Positions 27,858-32,543 of a stretch of 64,000 bases of DNA are shown here, in pieces; position 1 is the first letter of the stretch, and each line of letters begins with the position of its first letter. The translations under genes were made by a program, and so were the position numbers. Below the pieces are notes generated by a model, which was not told the DNA's origin, did not search any database, and saw only the letters and a list, made by a program, of their open reading frames with translations. The stretch spans positions 248,001 to 312,000 of the forward strand of contig JANQQJ010000024.1 in NCBI GenBank assembly GCA_028284945.1, written 5' to 3'. The DNA is from Alphaproteobacteria bacterium. Lineage in GTDB: Bacteria > Pseudomonadota > Alphaproteobacteria > SMXS01.

Positions 27858-28013
27858 GGTCGCTAAACGCGCACAAAATGTAAGATTATTACACAAACCT
27901 GTAACCACAGCGCTTCACAATCCGGATGGGAGGTGCTAAATCCAGCCCCCATCGTACTGTCCGTCCCAAGCCGGTTCAACCGACTCCCCAATCCAAAATT
28001 TGCCGAGATACCT

Positions 28014-30278
28014 ATGGCTGACGAAAAATATTCCGAGCGCGAGGCGCTGCTGTTTCACACACAGGGTCGCCCCGGAAAAATCGAGATTATCGCGACCAAA
28101 CCCATGGCGACCCAGCGCGATCTGTCACTCGCCTATTCGCCCGGCGTTGCCGCGCCCGTCCGCTCGATTCATGAAGATGAAACCCTGGCCTATGACTACA
28201 CCGCCAAGGGCAATCTGGTGGCGGTGATTTCCAACGGCACCGCCATTCTGGGCCTTGGCAATCTGGGCGCGCTGGCATCGAAGCCGGTGATGGAAGGCAA
28301 GGCGGTGCTGTTCAAGCGTTTCGCTGATGTCGACTCCATCGACCTGGAAGTCGATACAGAAGAGGTCGAGGAATTCATCAACTGTGCGCGGCTTCTGGGC
28401 CCCAGCTTTGGCGGCATCAACCTGGAAGACATCAAGGCGCCGGAATGTTTCATCATCGAGCAGCGACTGCGTGAAGAAATGAATATCCCGGTGTTCCACG
28501 ATGATCAGCACGGGACAGCGATTATCGCCGCTGCAGGCCTGATCAACGCGCTGCACCTGACCGGCCGTGACATCCAGGATTGCCAGAAAGTCGTCGTCAA
28601 TGGCGCGGGCGCTGCGGCGATTGCCTGCGTTGAGCTGATCAAGGCCATGGGTGTCGGCAGCGACCGGGTCATCATGTGCGATTCCAAGGGCGTGATCTAT
28701 CAGGGCCGCGAAGAAGGCATGAATCAGTGGAAGTCTGCCCACGCGGCGGTCACCGATGCGCGGACACTGGAAGAGGCGATGGACGGCGCCGATGTGGCCT
28801 GGGGCCTGTCGGTCGAAGGTGCATTCACAAAGAAAATGGTCGCCAGCATGGCCGACAATCCGATCATTTTTGCCATGGCCAATCCCGACCCGGAGATTTC
28901 ACCCGAAGAGGTTGAAGAAGTCCGGGACGATGCGATTGTGGCGACCGGCCGGTCGGATTATCCCAACCAGGTCAATAATGTGCTCGGTTTTCCCTATATC
29001 TTCCGCGGCGCGTTAGACGTTCGCGCCACCACCATCAATGAAGATATGAAAATTGCCGCGGCGCACGCCCTTGCCGGCCTGGCGCGCGAAGACGTGCCGG
29101 ACGAGGTCGCCAGCGCCTATGCCGGGCATCGGCCGACCTATGGACCCAACTACATTATTCCGGTGCCGTTCGACCCCCGGCTGATCAGTCATGTACCGCC
29201 AGCAGTCGCGCAAGCGGCGATGGATTCCGGTGTCGCGCGGCGGCCGATTATCGACATGGATGGCTATAAGGCGGAACTGGCGGCCCGGCTCAACCCCACT
29301 AGCGGCCAGCTGCAGATGATCTATGAGGATGTGCGGGCCGCGCCGAAACGCGTGGTGTTTGCCGAGGGTGAAGAGGAAAAGATCATCCGCGCCGCCATCG
29401 CCTACCGCAATGCCGGATATGGCACACCGGTGCTCGTTGGCCGCGACGAGGAGGTGCGCAAGACCATGCAGGCCATGGGGGTGGACGATCCCACCTGGCT
29501 GGAGATCCATAACGCCCGCGAAAGCGCCAACAATCAAGCCTATGCGCAGTTCCTCTACGAAAAGCTGCAGCGCAAGGGTTACCTATTCCGGGACTGCCTG
29601 CGCATGGTCAACAATGACCGCAACATCTTTGCCGCTTGTATGGTCGCCAAGGGCGATGCTGATGCCATGGTGACCGGTGTTACCCGGAATTACTTTACTG
29701 CCTATGAAGAGGTGCGGCGGGTGATCGATCCCCAGCCGGGTAGGACGGTGTTTGGCCTTTCCATGATCGTCAGCCGCGACCGCACGGTCTTCGTCGCTGA
29801 CACCCAGGTGAACGAACTGCCCAGCGCTGAACAGCTGGCCGGCATCGTCCAGGGATCGGCTGAAGCTGCCCGCATGTTCGGCGAAGAGCCCCGCGTGGCG
29901 CTGCTGTCCTATGCCAATTTCGGCCACCCGGAAGGGTTCCGCAGCGACCGAATCAGAGATGCGGTGCAGATTCTGGACGGTCAGCACACCGACTTTGAAT
30001 ATGATGGGGAAATGGCGGCCGACGTCGCCCTCGATCCGGAATTGCAAAAACTATACCCGTTCATGCGGCTGTCCGGGCCGGCCAATGTGCTGGTGATGCC
30101 GGCGCTGCACTCGGCCAATATCAGCTCGAAACTGATTAAGGCCCTGGGCGGCGGATCGATTGTCGGCCCGCTGTTGATCGGGTTGGAACGATCGGTCCAG
30201 ATCGTCCCGATGAGTGCGTCGGCTGCCGATATTGTCAGCACCGCCGCCTTGGCCTCCTTCGGATCCAGCCGCCTTTGA
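28014..30278 (+). CDS. maeB: NADP-dependent malic enzyme with C-terminal phosphotransacetylase-like domain
   Basis: A 754-residue enzyme converting malate to pyruvate and CO2 with NADP. The malic N-terminal domain contains AYSPGVAAPV and the AD(P)-binding domain VVNGAGAAAIACVELI. From about residue 430 a phosphotransacetylase-like domain follows (RVVFAEGEEEKIIRAA), regulatory rather than catalytic in characterised MaeB-type enzymes. I chose ATG 28014 (MADEKYSERE) because homologs start there; the frame is open 27 codons further to a GTG at 27933. Confidence 0.94.
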   Translation: MADEKYSEREALLFHTQGRPGKIEIIATKPMATQRDLSLAYSPGVAAPVRSIHEDETLAYDYTAKGNLVAVISNGTAILGLGNLGALASKPVMEGKAVLFKRFADVDSIDLEVDTEEVEEFINCARLLGPSFGGINLEDIKAPECFIIEQRLREEMNIPVFHDDQHGTAIIAAAGLINALHLTGRDIQDCQKVVVNGAGAAAIACVELIKAMGVGSDRVIMCDSKGVIYQGREEGMNQWKSAHAAVTDARTLEEAMDGADVAWGLSVEGAFTKKMVASMADNPIIFAMANPDPEISPEEVEEVRDDAIVATGRSDYPNQVNNVLGFPYIFRGALDVRATTINEDMKIAAAHALAGLAREDVPDEVASAYAGHRPTYGPNYIIPVPFDPRLISHVPPAVAQAAMDSGVARRPIIDMDGYKAELAARLNPTSGQLQMIYEDVRAAPKRVVFAEGEEEKIIRAAIAYRNAGYGTPVLVGRDEEVRKTMQAMGVDDPTWLEIHNARESANNQAYAQFLYEKLQRKGYLFRDCLRMVNNDRNIFAACMVAKGDADAMVTGVTRNYFTAYEEVRRVIDPQPGRTVFGLSMIVSRDRTVFVADTQVNELPSAEQLAGIVQGSAEAARMFGEEPRVALLSYANFGHPEGFRSDRIRDAVQILDGQHTDFEYDGEMAADVALDPELQKLYPFMRLSGPANVLVMPALHSANISSKLIKALGGGSIVGPLLIGLERSVQIVPMSASAADIVSTAALASFGSSRL

Positions 30279-30285
30279 GCCGGGT

Positions 30286-30579
30286 ATGGCACAGGTCTTC
30301 TTCACACAGCACCTGCGCCGCCTTGTCCCCTATGAACCCGTCGAGGTCTCAGGCGACACCATTGCGTCTGTTCTGGACGGCATTTTTGACGAGATTCCTG
30401 CCCTGAAAAGCTACGTGGTGGACGATCAGGGCGCGCTGCGAAAACATGTCTGTATCTTTGTCGATGAAGAGAGAATCGACTTCACCGGTTCTTTGACCCA
30501 TCCTGTCGGGGCTGAAAGCGAAGTCTATATTATGCAGGCCTTGTCAGGAGGGATGCGATGCAGGACCGGCTTCTTATAG
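30286..30579 (+). CDS. MoaD/ThiS-like beta-grasp (ubiquitin-fold) protein with Gly-Gly followed by a tail
   Basis: A 97-residue small protein starting 7 bp after the malic enzyme stop. It has the beta-grasp pattern: MAQVFFTQHLRRLVPYEPVE, central IFDEIPALKSYVVDDQGALR, KHVCIFVDEERI, then ESEVYIMQALSGG. Ubiquitin-like sulfur carriers end in Gly-Gly, which is adenylated by an E1-like enzyme. Here eight more residues (MRCRTGFL) follow the Gly-Gly. The GGAGGG encoding Gly-Gly also serves as ribosome-binding site of the next gene, whose ATG at 30558 overlaps this gene by 22 bp. Sulfur-carrier role is unproven. Confidence 0.82.
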   Translation: MAQVFFTQHLRRLVPYEPVEVSGDTIASVLDGIFDEIPALKSYVVDDQGALRKHVCIFVDEERIDFTGSLTHPVGAESEVYIMQALSGGMRCRTGFL

Positions 30580-31643
30580 GAACCCGCAAGGGTCTTTTCA
30601 TCATGCGCACCGACGGCGGCGGCTGGGCTGTCGACCGGACCGCCTTTCTGGGTCAGCCCGTCAGCGCAACGCTGTACGACACGCGATCCGGCTATCTCTA
30701 TGCGGCGCTCGACCTGGGCCACTTTGGCGCCAAGCTGCATCGGTCGGATGATCAAGGTGAAACATGGACCGAGCTCAACCCGCCAGCCTATGCGCCATCA
30801 GATGAAGACGGGGCACCTTCGGTCAAGCTGCTTTGGGTTCTTGAAGCCGGGGGGCCCGGGCAAGACGGCAGATTATGGGCTGGCACGATTCCCGGCGGGC
30901 TTTTCCGGTCCGACGATCACGGCGAAAGCTGGGCCCTCAATGAACCGCTCTGGAACGAGCCCGACCGGCAGAAATGGGTCGGCGGCGGCTTTGACGAACC
31001 CGGTATTCATTCCATCATCGTCGACGCGCGCAACCCGGAGCGACTCATAGCGGGTGTCTCCTGTGGTGGTGTTTGGCTTTCAGAAGACGATGGCGATAGC
31101 TGGGTCCTTCGCGCTGACGGGCTGCGCAGTGACTATACGCCGCCGGGCATCGCCGAAGAGGGCGCAATGCAGGACCCGCATCGCCTGATCCAATGCAAAG
31201 GCGCGCCCGAAAACTATTGGATCCAGCACCATAACGGCATCTTCAAGTCCACCGACGACCTGAAGAGCTGGCAGGAAATTCATGAGATGGGTCCGTCGAC
31301 ATTCGGCTTCGCACTCGCCGTACACCCAAACAACCCGCAAACCGCCTGGTTCGTGCCGGCAATCAAGGATGAATATCGCTATCCGGTCGACGGGCGATTT
31401 GTCGTCACCCGCACCACCGATGGTGGCCAATCAGCGGATGTGTTGATCAACGGGCTGCCAGACGCCGATGCCTATGACTTGGTTTATCGCCATGCGCTAG
31501 ATATCGACGAAACCGGCAACCGGCTGGCCATGGGCTCGACATCTGGCGGGCTTTGGGTCAGCGAAAATGCCGGTGACAGCTGGACACTACTGGCCGAACG
31601 CCTGCCGCCGGTGAACACAGTAGCTTTCGCCGAATTTATCTAG
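30558..31643 (+). CDS. BNR/Asp-box repeat beta-propeller protein (sialidase/VPS10-like fold)
   Basis: A 361-residue protein with repeated Asp-box motifs (S-x-D-x-G-x-T/S-W): SDDQGETW at 63-70, SDDHGESW at 118-125, SEDDGDSW at 175-182, a degenerate STDDLKSW at 231-238 and SENAGDSW near 340. Spacing suggests a six- or seven-bladed propeller. No signal peptide is seen, so it is probably cytoplasmic, unlike true sialidases, and the catalytic residues of sialidases are not evident. Translation appears coupled to the MoaD-like gene it overlaps. Its stop abuts the stop of the convergent acyltransferase gene. Confidence 0.85.
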   Translation: MQDRLLIGTRKGLFIMRTDGGGWAVDRTAFLGQPVSATLYDTRSGYLYAALDLGHFGAKLHRSDDQGETWTELNPPAYAPSDEDGAPSVKLLWVLEAGGPGQDGRLWAGTIPGGLFRSDDHGESWALNEPLWNEPDRQKWVGGGFDEPGIHSIIVDARNPERLIAGVSCGGVWLSEDDGDSWVLRADGLRSDYTPPGIAEEGAMQDPHRLIQCKGAPENYWIQHHNGIFKSTDDLKSWQEIHEMGPSTFGFALAVHPNNPQTAWFVPAIKDEYRYPVDGRFVVTRTTDGGQSADVLINGLPDADAYDLVYRHALDIDETGNRLAMGSTSGGLWVSENAGDSWTLLAERLPPVNTVAFAEFI

Positions 31644-32423
31644 CTAAGCCGGGCGTTCGCGGCGCGCCAGATGCGCGAAATATTTGTCCGGCACCCGGGC
31701 GATGGACTGAATCACAAACACATCCGTTGTGCCGAACTGTTCGTCGATGACCGCGCCATCGCCAATATAGGCGCCAACCCTCAAATAGCCTTTGATCAGC
31801 GGCGGTAGCGCCTTGACCACATCGCGCTCGCGAACCTGATCGGCGGGCATGATATTCATCTCTATGTGGCGAGACGGGACCGCATAAACGCACAGATCAT
31901 CGGGCGCACGGAAGTTGTGGTAGAGGTACGACAATGCCTCGGCATGCTGCTGCAAGTCGATCCCGGGCAGGCTGGCGCAGCCAAACAGATAAGACACCTT
32001 GTGCGCATATACATGTTCAGCAATGCCCTTCCAGAGCAGCTGGATCGTCGCATTGGAGCGGTATTCAGCCCGCACACAAGACCGCCCAAGCTCGAGAAAC
32101 TGGCCGTGACGACGATACGTATTCTCATCGCGGCCGACAAATAGCGGACTAAGGTCATATTCAGAGGCGGAATAAAATCCGTCATTCTGCAGCGCGACTT
32201 CCTCGCGCAGCAGACGATAGGTGCCGACAACGGCTTCATCAGCCGGCAGCGAGTGGTCGATCACGAGTAAATGGTCGCAAATCGGGTCGAATTCGTCGAA
32301 ATCCCGCCGTTCTGCAGCCATAACGTCGGTCGGCGTCGCACCCAGTTCTTCGTAAAAGACCCGGTAACGTAGCCGCTCAGCAGCGCGAATTTCTTGATCA
32401 TCAGCAGCAAGCCTGACCTCCAT
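31644..32423 (-). CDS. olsB: OlsB-type ornithine-acyl-ACP N-acyltransferase (hemolysin-like GNAT)
   Basis: A protein of at least 259 residues of the GNAT-like family that makes lyso-ornithine lipid from ornithine and 3-hydroxyacyl-ACP. Motifs: AERLRYRVFYEELGA, DFDEFDPICDHLLVID, GQFLELGRSCVRAEYRS and FGCASLPGID. Start uncertain: ATG 32423 is in frame but has no ribosome-binding site, and homology seems to continue about ten residues upstream, where a strong GGGGGAGG is followed only by GTT/ATC codons. A TTG at 32528 is the next candidate. No olsA is adjacent, though a PlsC-family gene lies at 13758. Confidence 0.85.
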   Translation of the reverse strand: MEVRLAADDQEIRAAERLRYRVFYEELGATPTDVMAAERRDFDEFDPICDHLLVIDHSLPADEAVVGTYRLLREEVALQNDGFYSASEYDLSPLFVGRDENTYRRHGQFLELGRSCVRAEYRSNATIQLLWKGIAEHVYAHKVSYLFGCASLPGIDLQQHAEALSYLYHNFRAPDDLCVYAVPSRHIEMNIMPADQVRERDVVKALPPLIKGYLRVGAYIGDGAVIDEQFGTTDVFVIQSIARVPDKYFAHLARRERPA

Positions 32424-32543
32424 AGAGGCGGGCCGCGTGGCTAGAACAGAGATAACAAAACCTCCCCCGTGATGTTCACTAGCCGAGTTTGCGCACCCTA
32501 ACACAGTGCGCGGCGATGTGGATGACAAAATGGTGACGCAGAA

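Follow-up and report, generated by a model that had tools for sequence, protein, structure and literature searches.

The window, a 64,000 nt long stretch of DNA from an alphaproteobacterium, carries two overlapping genes on its forward strand. The first gene (30286..30579) encodes a ubiquitin-like (Ubl) protein of the ThiS/MoaD superfamily, apparently of the SAMP1/CysO type. Its reading frame runs from the ATG at 30286 through ALSGG, which is complete at residue 89, to a TAG stop codon at 30577-30579. The protein comprises a core of exactly 89 aa, as in most homologs, and a C-terminal tail of 8 aa with the sequence MRCRTGFL (30553..30576). The original prediction had described this continuation beyond ALSGG correctly, including its coordinates. 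The second gene (30558..31643, forward strand) encodes a seven-bladed Asp-box beta-propeller of the family of PDB 3b7f that is predicted to be cytoplasmic. Their reading frames differ, and 22 nt are shared by both genes. The codons GGA GGG of Gly88 and Gly89 (30547..30552, forward strand) also form the Shine-Dalgarno sequence of the propeller gene, 5 nt ahead of its ATG at 30558. Directly behind them, at 30553..30555 of the same strand, an ATG stands at the site of a stop codon that the Ubl gene has lost. Upstream, a maeB-like malic enzyme gene (27933..30278, forward strand) ends with its stop codon 7 nt before the Ubl ATG. A malic enzyme of about 80% identity precedes the pair in the sister genus too, and in other lineages it is not a recurrent neighbour. 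On the other side a convergent gene resembling acyl-homoserine-lactone synthases and GNAT proteins (31644-32528, reverse strand) is likewise retained in the sister genus.

Profile searches with the Ubl gave scores below the cut-offs of all three families: 18 bits for Pfam ThiS (cut-off 22.5), 38.7 with an E-value of 1e-9 for the SAMP1 equivalog profile (cut-off 60) and 21.3 for moaD_arch (cut-off 49.5). Judged by its sequence the protein would be related to SAMP1 but not an equivalog of it; its best relative in the PDB by sequence is CysO. An AlphaFold2 model adopted a beta-grasp fold with a mean pLDDT of 86.9. A fold search with this model returned SAMP1 and CysO as top PDB matches (TM 0.73-0.79) and also matched CysO in complex with BexX, MoaD and Urm1, such that the predicted fold is SAMP1/CysO-like. 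The tail was modelled with low confidence, which fits a loose extension. The core is exactly 89 aa long and all 38 aligned homologs have the Gly-Gly, so the Gly-Gly plus tail of the window protein is not a product of chance. The same genome encodes other ThiS/MoaD-type proteins, which probably serve the molybdopterin and thiamine pathways. One further MoaD-like protein (contig C17, L003:1453-1704) ends with PAIGGG and is encoded directly 3' of a molybdenum hydroxylase-like gene.

For the propeller one solved protein, 3b7f, was matched in a phmmer search (E 4e-47). The AlphaFold2 model had a mean pLDDT of 94, and its closest folds were 3b7f (TM 0.90), followed by GH74 xyloglucanases and Ycf48. 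Among 104 + 26 propellers the residues H208, Q223, H225, R274 and R311 were conserved at 100%, K11 at 99-100% and H151 at 94-100%. Propellers that are encoded behind the Ubl additionally conserve H55, K59, H224, D271, D307 and H312. The conserved polar residues sit at the starts of the inner strands and in the loops between the second and third strands of the model, which would place the K/H/H/Q/H/R/R set on the usual ligand face of a propeller. Most bacterial sialidases carry a secretion signal. Here most homologs begin at the first propeller strand, which leaves no room for a signal peptide and agrees with the cytoplasmic location that had been proposed from the sequence. The catalytic Tyr/Glu and Asp with an Arg triad that define a sialidase are not conserved: only two Arg are invariant across both propeller types, and no invariant Glu or Tyr was found among the 104 + 26 propellers. 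Sialidase chemistry is thus unlikely, and the name "sialidase" appears unsupported.

To determine how far the pair is conserved, the propeller and a Ubl alignment were each searched against 385 genomes of the class to which the window belongs. The propeller was found in 59 genomes, the Ubl in 53 and both in 51 (p about 2e-52 for the co-occurrence, relatedness being ignored). In all 51 genomes the two genes are adjacent, i.e. in 51 of the 53 Ubl carriers and 51 of the 59 propeller carriers, in agreement with the functional pair that the original prediction had suggested. Concerning the two genomes with the Ubl only, one (G234) in fact has an adjacent propeller just under the cut-off. In the other (G059) the Ubl is a different, CysO-like one from a rhodanese/YcaO-type cluster (L215), where it lies beside rhodanese-domain and TfuA/YcaO-like proteins in a possible thioamide cluster. 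In three of the eight genomes with the propeller only, the contig ends on the side where the Ubl would be expected; the other five truly lack an adjacent Ubl. Four of these five propellers retain most or all of the pocket residues, which argues that the pocket is not merely a socket for the Ubl; the propeller may act without this Ubl.

Scanning named genomes provided 80 additional loci, all with the Ubl next to the propeller. They include isolates of Pseudomonas, Burkholderia, Anaeromyxobacter, Enhygromyxa and Pelagicoccus as well as many Planctomycetota and some Acidobacteriota assemblies. Plasmid records added further pairs or homologs from P. aeruginosa, Cupriavidus, Nonomuraea and Arthrobacter; for a Streptomyces propeller no Ubl was found within 3 kb. 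Overall the pair occurs in Pseudomonadota, Planctomycetota, Myxococcota, Verrucomicrobiota, Acidobacteriota and Actinomycetota, with phylum counts from assemblies being approximate, since some metagenome titles are mislabelled (the "Kuenenia" locus L078 is the alphaproteobacterial locus L008). The Ubl gene comes first in 106 scored pairs including the window, and the propeller gene comes first in 27 pairs of a more distant type, to which 3b7f belongs (E 4e-78 with locus L013). Genus g3, the sister of the window's genus, contains both types in different species. The distances among Ubls and among propellers correlated with r = 0.85 over 130 pairs, a value without control for the species tree. 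Clustering of the ORFs around 84 loci revealed varying neighbours, so that the pair appears to be a self-contained two-gene unit. A conserved third gene was considered and rejected: beyond the pair, the clusters that recurred at these loci seem to reflect antisense ORFs or the shared synteny of closely related genomes. Among the ORFs of the 84 loci, genes for E1, JAMM, rhodanese or cysteine synthase were not recurrent neighbours. The pairing of Ubl and propeller is almost obligate.

The C-terminus of the Ubl was scored for 133 pairs, leaving out four known duplicates. In 123 of them the Ubl beside the propeller ends exactly at a free Gly-Gly, where the window protein as translated carries its 8-aa tail instead; Gly88 and Gly89 are invariant in the alignment of the 38 homologs. 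The idea that an internal Gly-Gly is a trait of the family, comparable to pro-ubiquitins, was hence not borne out. Homologs without the Gly-Gly, varied ends and an unconserved pair, the observations that could speak against the original prediction, were looked for, and none refuted the pair. A Ubl homolog of Nonomuraea gerenzanensis that follows the propeller (L019:7081-7392) ends with VLPALA and has no Gly-Gly, which may be a real loss or a sequence error.

The use of the glycine codons as ribosome-binding site extends beyond the window. When the propeller ATG is at most 12 nt away or overlaps, 40 of 56 Ubls encode the Gly-Gly with GGA-GG. With longer gaps this holds for 6 of 50, and in the propeller-first order for 1 of 27, together 7 of 77 (p 4e-14, relatedness being ignored). 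The glycine codons hence double as the ribosome-binding site of the propeller gene when its start is close; the earlier description of the two genes as "locked together" is accurate and applies generally. Retention of the Gly-Gly merely as a ribosome-binding site was rejected, as it does not vary when the propeller gene comes first or when a long gap separates the genes. Its persistence where the Ubl gene comes second, so that its glycine codons cannot serve propeller translation, shows a constraint at the protein level. The amino acids are fixed by the protein, and the codons are selected by the ribosome-binding site of the neighbour.

Tails occur in the window, in the sister genus and in a few other alphaproteobacteria. 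Where the window has the ATG (30553-30555), a stop codon is found in relatives whose spacing is likewise 5 nt (TAG in L034 and L038, TAA in L043); in the sister genus this codon reads AAG or AGC. Because of these stop codons and the syntenic locus with the malic enzyme upstream, we conclude from sequence comparison that the stop codon after the Gly-Gly was lost, once or twice, in the family of the window and its sister genus, and that the tail is secondary. The tails of the window (8 residues) and the sister genus (17 aa) are unrelated in sequence. L054, with 24 additional residues, and L131/L132, with a single one, are independent cases. Among the sister-genus Ubls, which all carry a tail, the core evolves with a dN/dS of about 0.1-0.25, i.e. 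under purifying selection, and the tails lack purifying selection in the Ubl frame; their pattern is set by the propeller gene, since the tail overlaps its frame. This difference between core and tail suggests that the tail is tolerated and not selected. In the tail-bearing sister genome G005 (L220 / L008) an in-frame TGA splits the propeller gene, which indicates a pseudogene or an assembly error.

Both an E1-like protein and a JAMM protease, for which the original prediction had proposed to search, are encoded in the genome of the window: a full-length ThiF-family protein at C35:236185 and a JAMM protein at C26:68709 (HSHPDGEAAPSERD), whose HxH-x7-S-x2-D motif is intact as read from the sequence. 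An E1 match over the cut-off was found in 22 of 22 pair genomes tested, which is a weak test since E1 proteins are near universal. Strong JAMM matches were found in 7 of 8 tail genomes, whereas of the 46 remaining pair genomes in the class 11 had one (p 0.001 before considering relatedness), with the 7 of 8 representing three independent lineages only. Considering also that JAMM occurs in a species of genus g3 without a tail and was not detectable in the tail-bearing G005, the association between tail and JAMM is suggestive only. JAMM as a general partner of the pair was rejected, since about three quarters of the pair genomes without a tail in the class have no strong JAMM match. Two other candidates from the same genome were discarded as well, since neither shows a link to the Ubl and propeller: a ThiF and JAMM pair on C24 that looks like PRTRC-type plasmid genes, and a ThiF-domain protein on C20 beside an ImmA-like protein and a recombinase. 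The former genes (L024 and L027) lie in an array resembling the PRTRC plasmid gene set. The latter (L219, C20:58000-64000) adjoins the ImmA-like protein and a serine recombinase and may belong to a defence or mobile island.

Sulfur-transfer pathways can be recognised from the partner enzymes of ThiS/MoaD/CysO-type carriers. As in CysO-CysM of Mycobacterium and CysO-BexX of Amycolatopsis, a SAMP1/CysO-type beta-grasp protein with C-terminal Gly-Gly would here be a carrier tied to a partner enzyme. Unlike in these systems the partner is an Asp-box propeller instead of a cysteine synthase or a 2-thiosugar synthase, and in contrast to the CysO pairs no JAMM or E1 gene lies near the pair. The logic of carrier and acceptor enzyme and the expected E1-like activation are shared with MoaD-MoaE molybdopterin synthase and ThiS-ThiG, whereas the propeller is unrelated to MoaE and ThiG. 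QbsE of thioquinolobactin has extra residues behind its Gly-Gly, and this tail is processed. Extra residues after the Gly-Gly, as in the window, are also known from Deinococcus, where a JAMM protease is reported to act on a MoaD-MoaE fusion and to expose its C-terminal Gly (PMC8832034). For such JAMM-processed carriers the protease is known or part of the operon, whereas the candidate JAMM in the window's lineage is unlinked. The propeller family includes 3b7f (Reut_B4987), a putative glycosyl hydrolase with BNR repeats from structural genomics; the passages of PMC2716378 that discuss it report neither a function nor a Ubl partner. Ycf48, solved with a D1 peptide as ligand (PDB 5ojr, 5ojp), is also an Asp-box propeller but serves as a photosystem II assembly factor and shares only 14% identity. 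The operon classes in the 2006 survey of prokaryotic Ubl operons by Iyer, Burroughs and Aravind (PMC1779556) likewise comprise patchily distributed clusters with ThiS/MoaD-like proteins; the main text of the survey does not mention a propeller, BNR or sialidase association. Among the open-access main texts searched, no paper with both MoaD and BNR and no published description of the pair were found. The parts have been annotated separately, and the pair itself may have been described earlier. The P. aeruginosa pair, which we take to be PA1355/PA1356, has one passing mention in the literature.

The reading that we put forward, to which we assign an even chance, is that Ubl and propeller form a carrier-enzyme pair in which the E1-activated Ubl delivers a Gly-Gly thiocarboxylate to the propeller, with the tail of the window protein being clipped. 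The C-terminal Gly would be adenylated by an E1-like enzyme of the MoeB/ThiF type, presumably the shared one of the cell, and then converted into a thiocarboxylate. Upon docking of the Ubl onto its propeller, the ALSGG tail would be offered to the pocket that conserved His, Arg, Lys and Gln residues form on one face of the propeller. The propeller, acting as an enzyme, would employ either the sulfur or the activated carboxylate in a reaction on a small molecule, comparable to MoaE with MoaD, ThiG with ThiS and CysM with CysO. Loss of the Ubl stop in the window's lineage lets translation run eight residues into the propeller gene. This extension would most likely be removed after Gly89, for which the unlinked JAMM protease of the same genome is the best candidate. 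The matches to the folds of SAMP1, CysO, MoaD and Urm1, the pairing, the invariant Gly-Gly, the conserved pocket and the E1 matches are consistent with this carrier model. The same holds for the core dN/dS well below 1 among tail-bearing genomes and the Deinococcus JAMM precedent (PMC8832034). Against it speak that no E1, JAMM, rhodanese or cysteine synthase gene is linked, unlike in most described sulfur-carrier operons, the five propeller genomes without an adjacent Ubl, G005 without JAMM and the Nonomuraea Ubl without Gly-Gly.

The Ubl could alternatively be a non-covalent subunit whose flexible Gly-Gly tail sits in the propeller pocket and regulates or completes the propeller without any E1 step. 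The strict one-to-one pairing, the paired evolution with its distance correlation (again without species-tree control) and the crystallisation of Ycf48, among the closest folds, with a D1 peptide would suit such a subunit, and lineages with tails would be tolerated. A peptide for insertion need not end exactly at the Gly-Gly, yet nearly all scored Ubls do so, and fold and terminus match E1-activated proteins, which makes this arrangement rather unlikely. SAMP1, the closest fold to the Ubl, is an established protein modifier, and propellers are common as adaptor folds. The Ubl might thus be a SAMP/Urm1-like modifier with the propeller as receptor, target or E3-like adaptor that directs conjugation. 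We consider this improbable: the neighbouring ORFs contain no E2-like or RING gene and no E1 or JAMM linked to the pair, and the invariant His/Arg/Gln pocket resembles a site for a small molecule or a tail rather than a flat adaptor face.

For the window's lineage only, the pair may be decaying or the Ubl may no longer be a carrier, with the tail being a neutral stop loss in a dispensable system. The tail sequences that differ between genera without purifying selection in the Ubl frame, the in-frame TGA in the G005 propeller gene and the one tail genome without JAMM would be expected from decay. It appears quite improbable, given the low dN/dS of the core among the tail-bearing sister-genus Ubls, the intact propeller in the window and in 3 of 4 sister genomes, and the retained locus and 5-nt spacing. 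By the names used in public annotation, a secreted sialidase would stand next to a MoaD/ThiS protein that serves the synthesis of molybdopterin or thiamine. This is hardly credible, as the pair has no moa or thi gene next to it and the genome encodes further ThiS/MoaD-type proteins, the propeller has neither space for a signal peptide nor an invariant Glu or Tyr, and the pair stays together irrespective of context.

In the carrier model the partner is a propeller that has a solved structure and is annotated as a sialidase. We hold it somewhat less than evenly probable that the pair represents a widespread thiocarboxylate- (or Ubl-) dependent pathway with the propeller as dedicated acceptor, in which the window carrier would have become a pro-protein through stop loss, with its Gly-Gly codons still serving as ribosome-binding site. 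If the carrier model is true, it would add one more pathway to a short list and correct a common annotation. The tail-bearing lineage is a natural test case for the protease requirement of such proteins.
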